36,024 nucleotides of DNA. Source: an uncultured Saprospiraceae bacterium (GTDB taxonomy: Bacteria > Bacteroidota > Bacteroidia > Chitinophagales > Saprospiraceae). The notes under the pieces are model-generated. The model ran no database searches, had not been told where the DNA came from, and saw only the letters and a list, made by a program, of their open reading frames with translations. Below, piece by piece: positions 4,272 through 24,020 of this stretch. Location of the stretch: NCBI GenBank assembly GCA_937951685.1, contig CALFBG010000327.1:1-36024 (forward strand), read 5' to 3'. Within the stretch, counting starts at the first letter, position 1. The number at the start of each line of letters is the position of its first letter. Made by a program: the position numbers and the translations under genes.

Positions 4272-6701
4272 CTAAAACGGATATCCAATGGCGAGGTTAT
4301 AGTTGAAATTCTGTAACTGAAATTTACTAAAGCGATCGACCGCCCAGTAGGATAAATCTCCATTTAAGTTGGGTGAAAGATAGGGGTTTTTGAGTTTTAC
4401 GCCTAGGTCAAAGCGTATTACGAAGTAATAATCCAAGCGAACACCGAAGCCCGTTCCCAAGGCGATTTGATTAAGAAAACTATCGCCAATCTTTTCGCCC
4501 GTTTCTTGGTCAAATTTTGCTTTCCAGAGTAATTGGGAATTAGGACGACCTTCGTCTTCGCGCAAGGTCCAGATATTCCCACCATCCAAAAAGACTGCTC
4601 CTTTGAGTCGCCAGAATAAATCGAAGCGGTACTCCGCACTAAATTCAAATTTGAAATCTCCCGTTTGGAAAAAGGGCTGCGGGTTATTTGGATCTTGTAC
4701 GTATTGGTATCCTCCCGGTCCGGGTTCACGCACGCGAAAAGCACGGATACTATTGGGTCCACCAATAAAAAATTGTTTGATGTAGGGGACGTCCTTGGAA
4801 AAACCACCAAAAGGAAAGGCAATGCCTAGGTTGAGCCGCATGGCAATGGAATGTTTCTTCGAAGGGAAGGTACGATAATGTCGACCATCAAACTCTAAGC
4901 GAATGAATTGTGCGTAGTTGATGGTATCATTCCCTGAGAAAATTCGCAAAGGAGCACTTAGGTCAAATTGATTACCCAATAAAACTTCGGCGCCAGAAAC
5001 TTCTACATTGCCATTAAATTGCCAAGATTCTCCAAATTTATTAATCCTACTCGCATAAATATAGCTGAAATCCCGAAAGAGAAATCCGGTAAAGAGTTGT
5101 TTGTCAAAACTATTTCTTAAAAACTGGTTATTAAAAACAATTTGCTCAAAATCGGGTTCGAAAACGGGGCTGAAATAATTGATCCCCAAGTGGTTAATCA
5201 AGTAACTATGCTGTGGTGAACGTTGTAATTCGTACCCCAAACTCAACTCCAAAGAGGTCGTTCGATAGGTATTGATTAGTGAAGTAATACTTCCACCAAC
5301 GGAGGCGCGCGAACGCGCTCTTTCCTTTAGGTTTCGATAAAATTCTTTATTCAAAATGCCAGTCGCATTCATTACTTTCCAAAGGCCAAGATAATCTACA
5401 AATTTAGGTTTATAAAAATCAAGTTGTCCGCTCAAATTCCAAGCAAATACCAAGGTGTCGGGGTTAAGAAAATCTAAATCCACACCGCCCTGAATGTTAG
5501 CAGAAAATTGCTCTGCGCCCCGAAAGGAGTTTCGATTCCGGAAGATTAAGCCCAGACTCGTCCCAATTAAAGTCGTTCTATTATTGTCACTGACAAAGTT
5601 GGAGTTGTTGAGCTCCGCATCATATCCAAAGACGTTGCGCTTTTTCGGCGTTAATTTGATTTCAAAATGGATTAAGCCCGGTTGTTCTGGATCGAGGTAG
5701 GGTTTGATGAGTTTTATTTTATAAATATCCAAACTACCGAGTTGTGCAGCCGTTTTTTCGTAGTTATCGATTTTATACAGCGCTCCTTTTTTAAGATAAA
5801 TGACATCGAGAATCGTTTGGACAGAAATATCCATGGTACTGTCAATCGTCATAAAATGTACGCCGCCTTCCATCCGAACGATCCGTTTAATGGAATCTTG
5901 CTTTGCATCGTAATTGGGATAAACGAAAATATCGCCAATGCGATAGACTTGATGTTCGGGACTCGTCGTGGGGAGCAAGACCGTTAGAGTGTCTTTAACT
6001 TTATAATTCGTCGAATCTCCTTCTAGTACGTCAATGTAGCTTTTGTCAAAATAAGCAAAGCCTAAGTTTTGTAATCGCCGCGTAATCCGGAATACTTCTT
6101 CATTATAATTTTCTTGACTCACCGCGGTGCCCGGCTTGAGTATCGTTTCTTTACCAATATCCGTTAAAATGCGTTGAACTTTTAAATCCTTACTTTCAAA
6201 ACTAGTACTATCAAAGGTGTAGAGTCGTTTGGGATTGATGAGATAGGTAACTTTGGTTTTGTTCTTTTTGGTCACTGCTTGGTAGCTAACAATCGCATTG
6301 AAATAACCTTTGTTTTGGAGTAAGTATTGCATAGAGCGCGCCGTACTTTCCGCACGTTCTTCATCATAAATGCTTGGTTCTTCCGAAAACAATCGCAATA
6401 CCAAACGATCCCAACGACTAGAATCATTTTCTTGGGTATGATTGTAATAAAACCATTCGCGTGGAATTCCAATGAAATTTGTATTGGGTTTTTGCTTGTA
6501 AGTTGTGCCTAAGTCATATTTTAAAGCGCGTCGATTGCTAATTTTTTTCTTATCCTGAAAAACAATTTTGTTTTCCACCAAAAAGCTTTGATCATAGTCG
6601 AGGTGCCTAGTCGTATTGCAGGCAGCTAGTACGAAGAGTAGGCTTACTACCAAGAGTAGTTGAGGGAAAGATAGGAAATGCTTAAAGTGAAATATCGGCA
6701 T
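4272..6701 (-). CDS. TamA/BamA-family outer-membrane protein, lipidated (TamL type)
   Basis: 809 residues. The N-terminal signal ends in a lipobox LAAC (Cys28), unlike proteobacterial TamA. POTRA-like segments span about residues 30-370 (ENKIVFQDKKKISNR; YLLQNKGYFNAIVSY, the usual LxxxGYF turn of POTRA domains). The C-terminal half is a 16-stranded-type barrel with the Omp85 signature FFIGGPNSIRAFR and ends in GYPF. TamL proteins are the Bacteroidota partners of TamB in envelope assembly or lipid transport; no tamB is adjacent here. It is divergent from the SpoU methyltransferase, a neighbourhood I recall from other Bacteroidota. Confidence 0.88.
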   Translation of the reverse strand: MPIFHFKHFLSFPQLLLVVSLLFVLAACNTTRHLDYDQSFLVENKIVFQDKKKISNRRALKYDLGTTYKQKPNTNFIGIPREWFYYNHTQENDSSRWDRLVLRLFSEEPSIYDEERAESTARSMQYLLQNKGYFNAIVSYQAVTKKNKTKVTYLINPKRLYTFDSTSFESKDLKVQRILTDIGKETILKPGTAVSQENYNEEVFRITRRLQNLGFAYFDKSYIDVLEGDSTNYKVKDTLTVLLPTTSPEHQVYRIGDIFVYPNYDAKQDSIKRIVRMEGGVHFMTIDSTMDISVQTILDVIYLKKGALYKIDNYEKTAAQLGSLDIYKIKLIKPYLDPEQPGLIHFEIKLTPKKRNVFGYDAELNNSNFVSDNNRTTLIGTSLGLIFRNRNSFRGAEQFSANIQGGVDLDFLNPDTLVFAWNLSGQLDFYKPKFVDYLGLWKVMNATGILNKEFYRNLKERARSRASVGGSITSLINTYRTTSLELSLGYELQRSPQHSYLINHLGINYFSPVFEPDFEQIVFNNQFLRNSFDKQLFTGFLFRDFSYIYASRINKFGESWQFNGNVEVSGAEVLLGNQFDLSAPLRIFSGNDTINYAQFIRLEFDGRHYRTFPSKKHSIAMRLNLGIAFPFGGFSKDVPYIKQFFIGGPNSIRAFRVREPGPGGYQYVQDPNNPQPFFQTGDFKFEFSAEYRFDLFWRLKGAVFLDGGNIWTLREDEGRPNSQLLWKAKFDQETGEKIGDSFLNQIALGTGFGVRLDYYFVIRFDLGVKLKNPYLSPNLNGDLSYWAVDRFSKFQLQNFNYNLAIGYPF

Positions 6702-17977: not shown

Positions 17978-19177
17978 ATGGAAAGTAGTAAAAATATCAA
18001 TCAAATCGTAGCCGATAAAACACTTGATGCCACCTTGCAGACGGTTGCTAAAAAAGTTATGGCTGGAGAACGGATTACGGAAGCGGAAGGGCTCTATCTA
18101 TTTGAGCATGGCGACCTCGGCTATTTGGGTAGCTTAGCGAACTTTATTCGAGAGCGGAAACATGGCAACCGGACGTATTTTAATCGGAATTTTCACTTAG
18201 AGCCGACCAACGTCTGCTTGTATACCTGTAGTTTCTGTTCTTACTCTCGCTTGATCAAAAAGCGAAGCGAAGGGTGGGAGTATACGATGGAGGAAATGAT
18301 GGATCTGATTAAAAAATACGATGACGAACCGGTTACGGAAGTACACATTGTAGGAGGTGTTTTGCCGCAGTATGATTTGAAATTCTACACCGATCTTTTC
18401 AAAAGTATCAAAGCACATCGACCGGATTTACACGTAAAGGCATTAACGCCAGTTGAATATCATTATATTTTCAAGAAAGCTAAAGTGACTTACGAAGAAG
18501 GGATGAAGTTGATGAAAGAGGCTGGTCTAGATTCCATGCCCGGCGGTGGTGCAGAGATTTTCCATCCAGAAATTCGGGATGAGATTGCAGGCGGGAAATG
18601 TTCTGGGGAAGAATGGTTAGCGATTCACCGTGCTTGGCATAACTTGGGCATGCGCTCCAATGCTACAATGCTTTACGGTCATATTGAACAGTTTAAGCAC
18701 CGCATTCACCACTTGGAAGCCTTGCGAAGCTTGCAGGAGGAAACGGGAGGATTTCAAACTTTCATTCCCCTAAAATTTAGAAATAAAGGCAATCAAATGT
18801 CGCACGTAGCAGAATCTACCATCATCGAAGATTTACGGAATTACGCGATCAGCAGAATATACTTGGATAACTTTGATCACATCAAAGCTTACTGGCCAAT
18901 GATTGGTCGGGACACTGCGCAACTGTCGCTTGCTTTTGGCGTTGATGATATTGATGGTACGATTGATGATACCACTAAGATTTATACGATGGCGGGTTCG
19001 GAGGAACAAAGCCCTTCGATGAATACGCAAGAATTGGTAAGCTTGATTAGAGGGGTAGGTCGAGAAGCGATTGAAAGAGATACCTTATATAACGTTGTGA
19101 AAGATTATAAAGATCACGTTTTTGCGGAAGATACGATCTATAAAGGTTACGTTTCTTTGCCTGTGGTTAATAAATAA
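17978..19177 (+). CDS. mqnE: Aminofutalosine synthase (radical SAM)
   Basis: 399 residues. It joins 3-[(1-carboxyvinyl)oxy]benzoate with SAM to give aminofutalosine, the second step of the futalosine route to menaquinone. The [4Fe-4S] triad is CLYTCSFC (Cys80, Cys84, Cys87; CX3CX2C), preceded by FHLEPTNV as in MqnE. Further conserved stretches are VHIVGGVLPQYDL, PGGGAEIFHPEIRD and FIPLKFRNKGN. MqnC has a similar fold but lacks the FHLEPTN/CSYSR context, so MqnE is preferred. MqnA lies 0.8 kb downstream on the same strand, which supports the pathway call. Confidence 0.93.
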   Translation: MESSKNINQIVADKTLDATLQTVAKKVMAGERITEAEGLYLFEHGDLGYLGSLANFIRERKHGNRTYFNRNFHLEPTNVCLYTCSFCSYSRLIKKRSEGWEYTMEEMMDLIKKYDDEPVTEVHIVGGVLPQYDLKFYTDLFKSIKAHRPDLHVKALTPVEYHYIFKKAKVTYEEGMKLMKEAGLDSMPGGGAEIFHPEIRDEIAGGKCSGEEWLAIHRAWHNLGMRSNATMLYGHIEQFKHRIHHLEALRSLQEETGGFQTFIPLKFRNKGNQMSHVAESTIIEDLRNYAISRIYLDNFDHIKAYWPMIGRDTAQLSLAFGVDDIDGTIDDTTKIYTMAGSEEQSPSMNTQELVSLIRGVGREAIERDTLYNVVKDYKDHVFAEDTIYKGYVSLPVVNK

Positions 19178-19191
19178 GTTTAAAATAGTAC

Positions 19192-19800
19192 ATGAACATT
19201 TACATTATTCGACACGGAGAAACGGAATTGAATCGGCAAGGTATTGTGCAAGGAAGCGGTGTAGATGCTTCTTTAAACGATAAGGGCAGTCGACAAGCTC
19301 AGGCTTTTTACGAGGAGTATCGGCAAGTTGATTTCGAAATCATTATCACTTCTAAGCTTAAACGGACACACGAAACGATCGCGCCATTTTTACGAGAGGA
19401 TCTTCCTTGGGAACAATTCGCAGAAATTAATGAAATTTCTTGGGGGGTGATGGAAGGGCAAAAGCCAGATGCTGCGATGATACAACGCTATCAATCAATT
19501 ACAAAGGCTTGGGATGCAGGCGATTTTGACGCAGGCGTAACGGGAGGCGAGAGTGCTCGGATGCTCGGGGAAAGATTGGAAAATTTTGTAAGAACCTTGA
19601 AAACGCGACCCGAAAAAAATCTACTAGTTTGTATGCACGGGCGTAGCCTGAGAGCCTTGGTTTGTTTGTTAAAAGCAGAAAGCTTAACGCAAATGAGTAA
19701 ATTTCCACATAGCAATACGGGATTGTATTTGGTAGAATATAAAGATGGACAATTTAATTTTCAGTTGGAAAATGATACACGGCACTTAGCGCGTTTTTGA
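19192..19800 (+). CDS. Histidine phosphatase (phosphoglycerate-mutase-like)
   Basis: 202 residues, starting 14 bases after mqnE and so probably in its operon. It has the phosphohistidine motif IIRHGETELNRQG (His8), TSKLKRTHET, and the second catalytic histidine in VCMHGRSLRAL. Members hydrolyse or transfer phosphate on small molecules such as sugar phosphates, alpha-ribazole phosphate or phosphoserine. Nothing in the sequence fixes the substrate. The place between mqnE and mqnA hints at, but does not prove, a task linked to menaquinone or nucleoside salvage. Confidence 0.85.
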   Translation: MNIYIIRHGETELNRQGIVQGSGVDASLNDKGSRQAQAFYEEYRQVDFEIIITSKLKRTHETIAPFLREDLPWEQFAEINEISWGVMEGQKPDAAMIQRYQSITKAWDAGDFDAGVTGGESARMLGERLENFVRTLKTRPEKNLLVCMHGRSLRALVCLLKAESLTQMSKFPHSNTGLYLVEYKDGQFNFQLENDTRHLARF

Positions 19801-19842
19801 TATTCCAGTCTGAGTCATCGTCTTGCTTTGATCACACTAAAT

Positions 19843-19870
19843 ACTTTGTAATATATATTATCGAACATTT
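19843..19870. repeat. 28-bp dispersed repeat, copy B
   Basis: Matches 2250-2277 at 27 of 28 bases. In this copy the centre is the perfect palindrome TAATATATATTA. It lies 43 bases after the phosphatase stop codon. Confidence 0.75.
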
Positions 19871-19883
19871 TGAAACTGCCTTT

Positions 19884-19912
19884 TCAAGGATTAGCCTCCG
19901 GGGCTTCCTTGA
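19884..19912 (+). other. Hairpin downstream of the phosphatase gene
   Basis: TCAAGGA / TCCTTGA with inner AGCC / GGCT pairing, a two-base bulge and loop TCCGG. No T-run follows, so it is not a standard intrinsic terminator. It could be part of the small repeat element next to it. Confidence 0.4.
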
Positions 19913-20026
19913 TTAGTACGAAAATCCAAGGCTCAAAATATTCACAAACTTAAATTGAAAAATACTAAATACACCGTCCGGAAATTGAACTTTGCTTTTG
20001 TTACCGTGTACTAAATTTCGTCTATT

Positions 20027-20812
20027 TTGAAAAAAAAGTATAGCATTACCGCTGTTAGTTATCTGAATACGAAGCCTTTCTTGTATGGCTTATTGCATCA
20101 TCCTATTCGTGAACAGCTTGATTTGCAACTGGATATTCCATCCGCTTGTGCAGAAAAATTGCAAGCGGGAACAGTTGATATCGGTTTGGTACCCGTAGCG
20201 ATTATTCCTTCTTTGCAGCAGCCGCACATTATTTCAGATTATTGTATTGGTACCAACGGAACGGTGAAAACAGTTGGCATTTACAGTCAATGTCCCATCG
20301 AAGAAATTGAAAATTTGTACCTCGATTTCCACTCGCGTACGTCGGCGCAGCTGACGCGGATTTTAATTAAAGAATACTGGAAATTGGACGTCAATTTTCT
20401 GGAAGCGAAAGAAGGCTTTCGGGAAAAAATTGTGGGTAAAACGGCGGCGCTCGTCATTGGTGATCGCACCATTGGGATGGAAGAAAAATGCGCTTATCAA
20501 TATGACCTGGGCGAAGCTTGGCGCGCACATACGGGGCTTCCTTTCATCTTTGCAGCTTGGGTCAGTAACAAACCATTGAGTGCGACTTTTATCAAGGAAT
20601 TTAACGATGCCTTGGCTTATGGTTGCACGCAGATTCCCAACTTAGCTTTATTGTTAAATTCTCCTCATCCAAAATTTGATATTCAAAAATACTACACCGA
20701 ATACATTAACTACGATTTTGACCTTCCTAAAAAGCAAGCTTTAGCCTTGTTCTTGAAAAAAATGGGGGTTCCCATTCAAGAAAGTATTCAAAAAGGACTT
20801 TCTTTGGTCTAA
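20027..20812 (+). CDS. mqnA: Chorismate dehydratase
   Basis: 261 residues. It converts chorismate to 3-[(1-carboxyvinyl)oxy]benzoate, the first committed step of the futalosine menaquinone pathway. The fold is periplasmic-binding-protein-like: ITAVSYLNTKPFLYGL at the start, AGTVDIGLVPVAIIP near 45-60, SRTSAQLTRILIKEYW and LVIGDRTIGM are characteristic. The start must be TTG at 20027 (or an ATT just upstream), because a stop lies at 20012-20014 and no ATG precedes the conserved ITAVSYL. The TTG gives an N-terminus of M-KKKYS. MqnE is upstream on the same strand; MqnB, C and D are not in the window. Confidence 0.92.
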   Translation: MKKKYSITAVSYLNTKPFLYGLLHHPIREQLDLQLDIPSACAEKLQAGTVDIGLVPVAIIPSLQQPHIISDYCIGTNGTVKTVGIYSQCPIEEIENLYLDFHSRTSAQLTRILIKEYWKLDVNFLEAKEGFREKIVGKTAALVIGDRTIGMEEKCAYQYDLGEAWRAHTGLPFIFAAWVSNKPLSATFIKEFNDALAYGCTQIPNLALLLNSPHPKFDIQKYYTEYINYDFDLPKKQALALFLKKMGVPIQESIQKGLSLV

Positions 20813-21497: not shown

Positions 21498-21528
21498 TTG
21501 CATCTTAATGGGAATGCGCTTAATTTTG
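21498..21528 (+). promoter_or_regulatory. Bacteroidota-type promoter for the cys leader
   Basis: TTG at 21498-21500, 20-base spacer, TAATTTTG at 21521-21528: full agreement with the sigma-factor consensus. The ATG of the first leader peptide follows only 4 bases after the -7 box, so transcription likely starts at or beside the ATG. Confidence 0.7.
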
Positions 21529-21532
21529 AAGC

Positions 21533-21586
21533 ATGAACACCGAACATACAAATATTGCGAGTTGTTGTTGTCTTCTTCGTTCCTGA
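21533..21586 (+). CDS. Leader peptide 1 with three consecutive Cys codons
   Basis: MNTEHTNIASCCCLLRS, 17 residues. The Cys codons are TGT-TGT-TGT at 21563-21571, 12 bases before the stop. It lies between a strong promoter and a terminator. Downstream, GAAAGG (21589-21594) can pair with CCTTTC (21639-21644), which is the left arm of terminator 1. A ribosome that reaches the stop would cover GAAAGG and let the terminator form; one stalled at the Cys codons would leave it free as an antiterminator and would also disturb the small hairpin TTCGTT/AACGAA (21576-21591). The geometry fits classical amino-acid attenuation with cysteine as signal. Confidence 0.75.
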   Translation: MNTEHTNIASCCCLLRS

Positions 21587-21634
21587 ACGAAAGGTGACCC
21601 TAATGATACGTAATTACAACAAATTATAATCCTT

Positions 21635-21663
21635 AAAGCCTTTCCCTGTGAAAGGCTTTTTTT
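21635..21663 (+). terminator. Attenuator terminator 1
   Basis: AAAGCCTTTC (21635-21644) pairs with GAAAGGCTTT (21650-21659) over a 5-base loop and runs into a seven-T tract (21657-21663). It stands 48 bases after leader peptide 1 and over 200 bases before the structural gene, so it stops transcription prematurely. Confidence 0.85.
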
Positions 21664-21684
21664 ATGTCTAAATCAAAAATAATA

Positions 21685-21756
21685 ATGAAAAAATATATAT
21701 TAAATAATACTTGTTGTTGTTTCACTTTTCCCTACGGAATGGCAATATGGTATTGA
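21685..21756 (+). CDS. Leader peptide 2 with three consecutive Cys codons
   Basis: A 23-residue frame beginning MKKYILNNTCCC and ending GMAIWY. Cys10-12 are again TGT-TGT-TGT (21712-21720). The start is preceded by AAAAATAATA, the A-rich context usual for Bacteroidota initiation. No promoter is seen between terminator 1 and this frame, so it should be read only on transcripts that passed the first attenuator. The antiterminator is less clear than for leader 1: only GGAA at 21736-21739 can pair with TTCC (21790-21793) of the terminator's left arm. Confidence 0.7.
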   Translation: MKKYILNNTCCCFTFPYGMAIWY

Positions 21757-21783
21757 TTGAGCATTTTCAATGATTATTTATAT

Positions 21784-21816
21784 AGGCCTTTCCATTTTTG
21801 GAAAGGCCTTTTTTTT
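21784..21816 (+). terminator. Attenuator terminator 2
   Basis: AGGCCTTTCC (21784-21793) pairs with GGAAAGGCCT (21800-21809), loop ATTTTT, followed by an eight-T tract. It shares the GCCTTTCC core with terminator 1, which suggests that the leader/terminator unit was duplicated. The cysM-like ATG is 56 bases further on. Confidence 0.88.
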
Positions 21817-21872
21817 AGCTTGAAATTGAAGTCTATTTTTAAAAAAATCAAAACACAAAATCACTATAAATC

Positions 21873-22817
21873 ATGACAGCAGCTATCAAGAAACAGCAGA
21901 ATCTTTACGCCGATCGACTGAAACAAGTCCGTCAATTAATTGGGAGAACACCTTTGTACAAAATTGCAGGGGCTTTTCAAAAACCGGGGGTAGCGATTCA
22001 CGCAAAATTGGAATGGAATCAACTCGGCGGCAGTATGAAATCCCGCCCGGCTTTTCAAATTATTAATTCCGCGATCGAAAAAGGGGATTTGTACCCTGGA
22101 AAAACTTTGCTAGATGCTACGAGTGGCAATACTGGAATTGCTTATGCAACGATTGGTGCGGCACTCGGTATTCCAGTTGCGTTGTGCCTACCAGAGAACG
22201 TTTCAACGGAAAGAAAATTGCTGTTACAGTCCTTGGGGGCAAAAATCATTTGCACGTCTAAATCTCAAGGTATCGAAGGTGCTCAGCTGCGCGCAAAAAA
22301 TTTAGCAAGGGAGTTTCCGGATCGCTATTATTACGCAGATCAATATACGAACGAACAAAACTGGAAAGCGCACTTTCACGGAACTGCCGTAGAAATCTGG
22401 GAACAAACGCAAGGGCGGATTACTCATTTTATTACGGGCTTAGGTACCACGGGGACTTTTATGGGCATCGGTCGGCGGTTGAAATTGTACAATCCAGCTA
22501 TTGAATTAGTGGCGTTACAAGCCAATACGCCAAAGCATGGGCTGACAGGTTGGAATCATTTGGAAACAACTCCCGTTCCGAAAATCTACGATGCTGATTT
22601 GGCGGATCAATTCATGGAGGCAGATACGCAAGAGGCTTATACTTGGATTCGCTGGGTAGCCCGTAAGGAAGGTTTGATTTTGAGTCCGTCGGCAGCCGCT
22701 AATTTGGCTGGTGCGGTGGCTTTGGCGGATAAGATCGATGAAGGTTTTATTGTTACTAGTTTTGCGGACGACGCAACGAAATATACGGCTTTGCTCCACG
22801 AAATTCTTAATCCATAA
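21873..22817 (+). CDS. cysM: Cysteine synthase, CysM-like (PLP fold type II)
   Basis: 314 residues. It makes cysteine from an activated serine and a sulfide or thiocarboxylate donor with PLP. LGGSMKSRPAF holds the PLP lysine (Lys56); SGNTG (84-88) is the substrate loop and GLGTTGTFMGIGRR binds the cofactor phosphate. The Lys is followed by SRP rather than the DR of CysK; this and the lack of the long CysK C-terminus favour the CysM side. There is no regulatory CBS domain. Two Cys-codon attenuators precede the gene. The next gene encodes an E1-rhodanese protein, the same pairing seen in the CysM-CysO-MoeZ route of actinobacteria. The symbol denotes the family; the substrate is not proven. Confidence 0.82.
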   Translation: MTAAIKKQQNLYADRLKQVRQLIGRTPLYKIAGAFQKPGVAIHAKLEWNQLGGSMKSRPAFQIINSAIEKGDLYPGKTLLDATSGNTGIAYATIGAALGIPVALCLPENVSTERKLLLQSLGAKIICTSKSQGIEGAQLRAKNLAREFPDRYYYADQYTNEQNWKAHFHGTAVEIWEQTQGRITHFITGLGTTGTFMGIGRRLKLYNPAIELVALQANTPKHGLTGWNHLETTPVPKIYDADLADQFMEADTQEAYTWIRWVARKEGLILSPSAAANLAGAVALADKIDEGFIVTSFADDATKYTALLHEILNP

Positions 22818-22832
22818 GTCTACGCTACAAGG

Positions 22833-22864
22833 TTTTAAAATAGTAGAATTTTAAATTAACTTTG
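22833..22864 (+). promoter_or_regulatory. Possible internal promoter before the E1-rhodanese gene
   Basis: TAACTTTG at 22857-22864 is a full -7 match ending 13 bases before the ATG at 22878. At the -33 distance there is TTT (22833-22835), not TTG. It could give cysteine-independent expression of the second gene. Confidence 0.4.
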
Positions 22865-22877
22865 TGAAAAAATAATC

Positions 22878-24020
22878 ATGAGTGATTCCGTTCAACTTTC
22901 CCCCGCCGAAATGGCGCGTTATGCTCGGCACATTGCGATTCCTGAGTTTAATCTAACCGCGCAAAAGAAATTGAAAGCAGCGAAGGTTTTGGTGATTGGT
23001 TCGGGCGGTTTAGGGAGCCCAATGTTGTTATATTTGGCGGCGGCGGGTGTTGGTCAATTGGGGATTGTAGATTTTGATGTGGTGGATGATAGCAATCTTC
23101 AACGGCAGGTTTTGTTTACGGTAGCCGATATTGGTCAATCGAAAGCCGAAACGGCAAAACGGCGCTTGCAAGCGCTGAATCCTTATATCGAGATTAAGGT
23201 TTATCATACGCAATTTACGAAAGAAAATGCCCTTGATTTGATTGCGGATTATGACGTAGTGGCTGATGGAACAGATAATTTTCCTACGCGCTACTTGGTG
23301 AATGATGCTTGTGTTTTGGGTGGGAAGCCGAATGTATACGCTTCGATTTTTAGATTTGAAGGTCAGGTGTCGGTGTTCAATTATTTACACGAAGATGGAA
23401 GCCGTGGGCCGAATTATCGGGATTTATTTCCAACGCCGCCACCGCCGGATTTGGTGCCCAATTGTGCAGAAGGTGGCGTGCTCGGTGTGCTGCCAGGTAT
23501 TATCGGGAGTATGCAAGCGAGTGAAGTAATCAAGGTCATCACTGGCGTGGGAGAACCCTTGGCCGGGCGCCTATTTTTATTTGATGCGGCGAGCTTTACG
23601 ACGCGTATTTTAAAAGTAAAAAAGAACCCGACGACTGAAATTAAAACCTTAATTGACTACGATTTGTTCTGTGGGATTCAGCCAGTTAGCACTTTAGACC
23701 CAATAAAAGAGATTAAAGTGCAGGAGTTCAAAAAATGGTTAGACGACGGGGAAGACTTTCAATTGATTGACGTGCGAGAACCTTACGAATATGAGATCTC
23801 TAACCTAAAAGGAACCTTGATTCCATTGGATCAAATCGTGGATGCAGTGGCTAACATTGCACGGGATAAAAAAGTGGTGATACACTGCCGGAGTGGCAAA
23901 CGGAGCGCAGCTGCCATTCGAAGCTTGCAAACTCATTTTCAGCTGGATAATTTGTATAACTTGGAGGGCGGTATTAACGCATTTGCCCAAGAAATTGACC
24001 AATCACTGCCTGTTTATTAG
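22878..24020 (+). CDS. MoeB/ThiF-type E1 enzyme fused to rhodanese domain
   Basis: 380 residues. The N-terminal adenylation domain has the nucleotide loop GSGGLGSP (41-48), VDFDVVDDSNLQRQ, the VADGTDNF metal site and the Cys of LVPNCAEGG (Cys196). The C-terminal rhodanese domain (from about 275) has the active loop CRSGKRS (Cys337). Such enzymes adenylate the C-terminus of a ThiS/MoaD/CysO-like carrier and load it with sulfur from the rhodanese. The zinc CxxC of MoeB is lost (Asn179 and Asp182 in GPNYRDLF). It follows the cysM-like gene by 60 bases. No carrier-protein gene is visible nearby; it must be elsewhere if this route operates. Confidence 0.88.
   Translation: MSDSVQLSPAEMARYARHIAIPEFNLTAQKKLKAAKVLVIGSGGLGSPMLLYLAAAGVGQLGIVDFDVVDDSNLQRQVLFTVADIGQSKAETAKRRLQALNPYIEIKVYHTQFTKENALDLIADYDVVADGTDNFPTRYLVNDACVLGGKPNVYASIFRFEGQVSVFNYLHEDGSRGPNYRDLFPTPPPPDLVPNCAEGGVLGVLPGIIGSMQASEVIKVITGVGEPLAGRLFLFDAASFTTRILKVKKNPTTEIKTLIDYDLFCGIQPVSTLDPIKEIKVQEFKKWLDDGEDFQLIDVREPYEYEISNLKGTLIPLDQIVDAVANIARDKKVVIHCRSGKRSAAAIRSLQTHFQLDNLYNLEGGINAFAQEIDQSLPVY

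Follow-up and report, generated by a model that had tools for sequence, protein, structure and literature searches.

We report here that the transcript of a cysM operon in a member of the Bacteroidota very probably passes through two cysteine-specific, ribosome-mediated transcription attenuators arranged in series. The window, that is, the whole stretch of DNA that was analyzed, is 36,024 nt long. Two short leader open reading frames (ORFs) with runs of Cys codons, each with its own antiterminator strand and intrinsic terminator, follow one another upstream of cysM, and these parts, their order, their conservation and their competing pairings are present in the sequence itself. The arrangement offers this part of the Bacteroidota a concrete and testable means of cysteine control.

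Organization of the Leader Region

The two short frames with three consecutive Cys codons that had been recognized in the earlier note, 17 and 23 residues long, were confirmed, as was the intrinsic terminator after each (table 1). The same note placed them in series between a consensus promoter and a cysteine synthase gene. This order stands, while the promoter is corrected here to one of the Bacteroidota type. Bacteroidota promoters consist of a TTG followed by TAnnTTTG, and we take the TTG and the TAATTTTG box of the window to be such a promoter; TAATTTTG agrees with TAnnTTTG at every fixed position. A sigma-70 promoter was also considered for unit 1 and rejected, because the hits lie elsewhere and the Bacteroidota box fits better.

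Table 1. Features of the cysM leader region and operon in the window
Feature	Positions	Strand	Details
Bacteroidota-type promoter (presumed)	21498-21528	+	TTG 21498-21500, 20-nt spacer, TAATTTTG 21521-21528
Leader peptide ORF 1	21533-21586	+	MNTEHTNIASCCCLLRS, then stop; 17 aa; Cys-Cys-Cys codons 21563-21571
Antiterminator strand, unit 1 (predicted)	21588-21596	+	Paired core GAAAGGT 21589-21595; begins right past the leader stop codon
Intrinsic terminator 1 (predicted)	21635-21664	+	Stem 21635-21659 (10 bp), T tract from 21660
Leader peptide ORF 2	21685-21756	+	MKKYILNNTCCCFTFPYGMAIWY, then stop; 23 aa; Cys-Cys-Cys codons 21712-21720
Antiterminator strand, unit 2 (predicted)	21735-21744	+	Core GGAATGGC 21736-21743; within leader ORF 2
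Intrinsic terminator 2 (predicted)	21784-21817	+	Stem 21784-21809 (11 bp), T tract from 21810
cysM-like cysteine synthase gene	21873-22817	+	First gene of the putatively controlled operon
moeZ-like gene (ThiF and rhodanese domains)	22878-24020	+	Second operon gene

The ATG of leader 1 lies only 4 nt past the promoter box, so that this leader would begin at or beside the 5' end of the RNA and is probably leaderless. The ATG of leader 2 is found 25 nt beyond the stem of terminator 1 (another in-frame ATG, at 21664, would yield 30 aa), and a search for a promoter box ahead of leader 2 in the window found none. The hairpins of terminators 1 and 2 have predicted energies of -11.5 and -18.9 kcal/mol, respectively, and 63 nt separate the end of the second stem from cysM. 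Terminator-like sites by themselves are not enriched around the operon (three between 20500 and 23500, against 3.2 expected from shuffled sequence), and the case therefore stands on the combination of Cys-run ORF and terminator and on its conservation. Riboswitches and T-boxes were rejected as candidates, since no Rfam family matched at its gathering score anywhere in the window and a lax threshold gave weak hits only.

The product of the first operon gene is a PLP enzyme resembling CysM. Among NCBIfam models, cysM (TIGR01138) fits it best (E 4.5e-88), at a score of 295.6 bits that is below the cut-off of 394.2. The gene under putative control thus belongs to the cysteine pathway, as judged from cysM and moeZ in the window and from cysM with downstream mec, cysO and moeZ matches in relatives. 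Upstream, near the cysteine operon, the interval 17978-20812 holds menaquinone genes of the futalosine route, namely those for an MqnE-like radical SAM protein and a VitK2_biosynth protein.

Conservation Upstream of cysM

Relatives of the locus were collected by searching the CysM protein in four sets of genomes, that is, relatives (60 genomes), order (396), phylum (395) and class (295). The order set comprises 74 relative loci plus the window, examined up to 3500 nt upstream; one match to a cut gene (in genome G150) was left out. A unit, as counted here, is a short ORF that holds three or more Cys codons in a row and has a terminator after it, both sought within 1500 nt. Counts over 72 loci require at least 300 nt of upstream sequence and omit three shorter loci (L053, L099 and L104).

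Units were found upstream of cysM in 64 of these 72 loci, the window included, and amount to 87 in total. None appeared in the antisense strand (0/72), downstream of the gene (0/70), inside it (0/72) or in dinucleotide shuffles (0/360). The earlier note had proposed to look among relatives for conserved Cys codons and terminators, and this comparison gives both strong support. Cys-run short ORFs without regard to a terminator occurred in 66 of the 72 loci, and at low frequency in the same controls (antisense 2/72, downstream 4/70, in gene 0/72, shuffles 16/360). In two of the 66 (L045 and L050) the Cys run is present and no terminator was found after it, and in six loci (L072, L081, L082, L083, L084 and L092) no Cys-run ORF was found. 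Based on these data, a putative cysteine-specific attenuator before the cysM operon is conserved and widespread in this order.

Units were also encountered at greater distances. Among 26 phylum-level loci examined, from 39 new genomes, 14 have units (that of L167 is doubtful), five have a Cys run alone and seven have neither. The class sample contributed nine new loci, searched within 1500 nt, with three units (L192, L193 and L197), one Cys-run ORF alone and five loci with neither.

TGT and TGC codons are mixed in 86 of 102 Cys runs, and this speaks for selection at the level of the amino acid and against repeat slippage. Beyond the run, the leader peptides vary widely in length and sequence, as judged by eye. 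With three codons each, the runs of both window units are among the shortest.

The content of the operon was followed in relatives by tblastn with the proteins of L006, the nearest relative (E up to 1e-4). Among the 58 loci that have units and at least 2000 nt of downstream sequence, moeZ was matched in all and mec and cysO in 57. The window is the sole exception, with no mec or cysO match after cysM, which is separated from moeZ by 22818-22877. The L006 Mec and CysO proteins had no match in the genome to which the window belongs either, which is 94.6% complete, nor had the Pfam Prok-JAB model, the only one of these searches that was run with a control. In a quick tree of cysM rows, five of the six loci without leaders (L072 and L081-L084) form one clade. 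Four of them could be followed over 3500 nt downstream and showed no mec, cysO or moeZ match, L072 having just 329 nt of downstream sequence. Locus L092 runs counter to this trend, with mec, cysO and moeZ present, yet no leader found.

Nine of the 75 loci have a gene that is peroxiredoxin-like by its motif at most 1500 nt ahead of cysM and, in those for which the gene order was listed, it lies between leader and cysM. In L006, the gene at 1054-1413, which stands after the tandem leaders and before cysM, matches solely the C-terminal domain of a 1-Cys peroxiredoxin, and other relatives have a longer peroxiredoxin-like gene at its place.

Competing Pairings

The pairing analysis covered 102 units, 87 from the order set and 15 from the phylum sample. 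In 78 of them the stretch between Cys run and terminator pairs with the left arm of the terminator better than 95% of shuffles, against 9 when the right arm was used as a control (about 5 expected). Together with the conservation described above, this result supports the cysteine attenuation proposed in the earlier note. The mean energy of the left-arm duplex is -15.6 kcal/mol, compared with -9.6 for shuffles, and when each genus contributes one unit per position, at most 10 of 200 shuffles are as good in 55 of 69 units. Families f20 and f8 passed the duplex test in three of eight loci each. A stricter test, based on the probability of left-arm pairing in the folding ensemble, was passed at the 95% level by just 50 of the 102 units. 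In the window, unit 1 passes it (3/100 shuffles as good) and unit 2 fails (20/100).

In unit 1, the left arm of terminator 1 can form 7 bp with the GAAAGGT core, a duplex of -9.1 kcal/mol that none of 200 shuffles equals; the earlier note had already pointed to GAAAGG (21589-21594), past the stop codon, as the partner of this arm. In the view of the same note, a ribosome that has reached the stop codon would mask this strand and one stalled at the Cys codons would expose it, and both the predicted folding in the window and the position of the strand agree with this. When the window units were folded without the right arm, the antiterminator helix was predicted whichever of the three Cys codons the ribosome was placed on, and a ribosome placed at the stop left the left arm essentially free, in both units. 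Across the set, 101 of 102 units (69.9 expected) have the pairing strand within the stretch that would be hidden by a ribosome positioned on the stop codon. In unit 2, GGAATGGC pairs with the left arm with one mismatch (-11.3 kcal/mol); 14 of 200 shuffles are as good, and this antiterminator taken alone is therefore weak to marginal.

At equilibrium, a terminator that already has both arms is the predicted winner whether the ribosome is stalled or at the stop, so the choice would have to be kinetic. Kinetic choice between hairpins is familiar from other attenuators. Both window units are predicted to fold a protector (1:2) hairpin. Across the set it is no better than in shuffles (8 of 102 units with at most 10 of 200 shuffles as good), and the classic protector finds no support as a conserved feature.

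These pairings bear on two alternatives. In the first, the chief effect of the poly-Cys leaders would be on how the downstream gene is translated, as reported for leaderless polycysteine ORFs of mycobacteria, with the hairpins being incidental. The leaderless-type start of unit 1 would suit such a mode of action, as would five loci of family f44 (L162, L165, L166, L168 and L169) in which the Cys run is beside the stop codon and no terminator was found. Nevertheless, 64 of 66 loci have a terminator after the leader, the stretch after the run is matched to the terminator left arm, and terminator stem 2 ends 63 nt short of cysM, which together make this alternative very unlikely.

The second would have the ORFs encode small Cys-rich proteins, involved in metal binding or redox, with terminators that merely end their genes. 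The mixing of TGT with TGC, Cys being retained, is what such proteins would show as well. On the other hand, the peptides are highly variable outside the run, the ORFs sit upstream of cysteine-synthesis operons, the DNA past the run is constrained to pair with the terminator, and the five-locus clade without leaders also lacks mec, cysO and moeZ matches wherever 3500 nt were available. We consider small proteins extremely improbable, and less probable still than translational control.

Proposed Mechanism

Attenuation of transcription would work as follows in each unit. A ribosome translating the short leader would trail the RNA polymerase. With plentiful Cys-tRNA it would reach the stop codon and cover the antiterminator strand, the terminator hairpin would form and transcription would halt. 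With scarce Cys-tRNA it would stall at the Cys codons and leave this strand free to take the left arm of the terminator before the right arm exists, and the polymerase would continue. Having passed unit 1, the polymerase would meet the same decision again, as translation would start anew at unit 2, and only after passing this second unit would it enter cysM. The operon would be read only at low cysteine. Stalling, termination, the cysteine signal and the multiplied, and hence steeper, response are the steps that we infer from these parts.

Tandem and Single Units

Compact tandems of two complete units occur in 20 of the 75 loci, from 15 genera and two families (15 loci in f1 and five in f12). 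Three further loci, all of genus g76, have two units separated by a gene, and in a third family of the same class, f27, two loci (L163 and L193) are also tandem. In the nearest relative, both units are present with runs of four and five Cys codons. The nearest ATG of the second run is 15-86 nt past terminator stem 1 in 21 compact tandems.

First and second units differ in two respects. A promoter box, scored as at least five of six fixed positions and at most 16 nt from the leader start codon, was found in 13 of the 23 first units, as well as in 26 of the 41 single ones, against 4 of the 23 second units, where shuffles gave rates of 0.17, 0.20 and 0.23, respectively. Since boxes before second units occur at the rate of shuffles, unit 2 is most likely reached solely through terminator 1. 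In 8 of the 23 first units, that of the window among them, the box ends 4 nt ahead of the ATG. Moreover, the median number of codons after the Cys run is 4 in first units and 12 in second units (21 each, P = 1.8e-5), or 4 and 11 when the sample is thinned to one per genus (16 each, P = 9e-5). The tails of second units match those of the 41 single units (P = 0.5), suggesting that unit 2 is the ordinary one and unit 1 an added, compact one. The split pairs (L115, L116 and L118) entered the promoter-box and pairing counts and were excluded from the tail comparison.

The earlier note described the arrangement as a serial duplication. Two units in series do recur among relatives, but the difference in tail length indicates that they are not plain duplicates. 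Two terminators of one locus resemble each other slightly more than terminators of different loci do (permutation P = 0.012 over 18 loci, with three near-identical g84 loci dropped). This likeness notwithstanding, we rejected a simple recent duplication as the whole story, as first and second units differ. On a quick and poorly resolved tree of 81 cysM rows, the tandem state needs 11 changes, and the branches starred in it force at least two.

A single active unit in the window genome, with the other a decaying remnant, was also weighed. The three-codon Cys runs, short for the set, and the mismatched, marginal antiterminator of unit 2 are what decay might leave behind. We nevertheless find this unlikely, as ORF, Cys run, terminator and antiterminator are kept in both units, tandems are found in 15 genera and L006 retains both units with its longer runs.

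With two working attenuators, the differences between them may form an asymmetric two-stage gauge, a reading that we put forward tentatively. A leaderless, short-tailed unit 1 would be combined with an ordinary unit 2, with thresholds or timing that differ; the antiterminator would lie at or just past the stop codon in unit 1 and within the ORF in unit 2. If, on one transcript, each unit gauges Cys-tRNA independently of the other, readthrough would be the product of two decisions, and by this reasoning doubling would sharpen the response. Under the same tentative reading, many genera may have retained the design, or it may have evolved in them more than once. The same operon being preceded in some loci by one attenuator and in others by two, these loci provide a natural series in which the worth of doubling a regulatory decision becomes measurable.

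Comparison with Known Systems

The trp, his, phe and leu leaders are ribosome-mediated transcription attenuators of amino-acid operons. The units described here resemble them in having an ORF with a codon run, an intrinsic terminator, an antiterminator whose access would depend on ribosome position and a downstream gene for the same amino acid. They differ in responding, as proposed, to cysteine, in forming two complete units with the same signal in series, in being from Bacteroidota, in the probably leaderless start of unit 1 and in the lack of support for a conserved protector hairpin. At a lax threshold, the Rfam family with the lowest E value over both units was Phe_leader (RF01859; 0.0023 and 0.024, full length), whose scores of 30.9 and 26.3 bits against a gathering score of 55 indicate likeness of layout only.

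The leader ORFs of mycobacterial polycysteine leaders are reportedly leaderless, going by the title of the 2020 work of Canestrari. Those leaders share with ours a short ORF with Cys runs that precedes genes for cysteine, and unit 1 of the window probably also shares the leaderless start, whereas here each leader has a terminator and an antiterminator, and units are often paired. The passages on Mycobacterium and other bacteria in an earlier survey describe Cys-run leaders without conserved hairpins able to act as terminators (Seliverstov 2005, PMC1262725), and the pertinent part of a review treats mycobacterial polycysteine leader control as regulation of translation (PMC9031893). The present loci extend polycysteine leaders from this mycobacterial form, which lacks terminators, to a complete terminator-antiterminator form.

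Tandem short ORFs are described in the relevant passages on Salmonella mgtCBR, where they sense ATP and proline and act additively (PMC3641672). As far as these passages go, both systems have two short ORFs in series within one leader and stem-loop decisions on transcription, while here the signal is the same in both units, namely Cys codons, and a separate terminator belongs to each.

For Bacteroidota, the pertinent text on a flavobacterium reports clues for leader-peptide attenuation before amino-acid operons (PMC9723704), and the extracts of this and another transcriptome paper (PMC7366714) treat leader-peptide attenuation in general terms only. Among the matches listed from the openly licensed literature, represented mostly by titles and the first lines of abstracts, we recognized no description of cysteine attenuators in Bacteroidota. 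Extracts from PMC13236596, PMC9094748, PMC2965389, PMC8079986 and PMC4833913 also belong to this background.

Other Cys-Run Leaders

In the five f44 loci, the Cys run leads directly into Ser-stop about 140-180 nt upstream of cysM, accompanied by a conserved stretch; some show a small hairpin of the TTACCG/CGGTAA type. By analogy with mycobacteria, these runs are perhaps a translational form.

Our scan of the genome to which the window belongs covered runs of four TGY codons, which three-codon runs such as those of the window escape, and it yielded one place with a terminator after a Cys-run ORF. This second leader, MNYLNHNIVVACCCCCLETSTQNERSM, lies with its terminator at 1467-1612 of locus L142 (G000:C200, near 4450-4600) and precedes a gene for a RimK-like ATP-grasp ligase. 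This could mark a cysteine-using ligase not yet recognized. Among four relatives of the ATP-grasp gene, two (L200 and L201) are likewise preceded by a Cys-run leader and a terminator.
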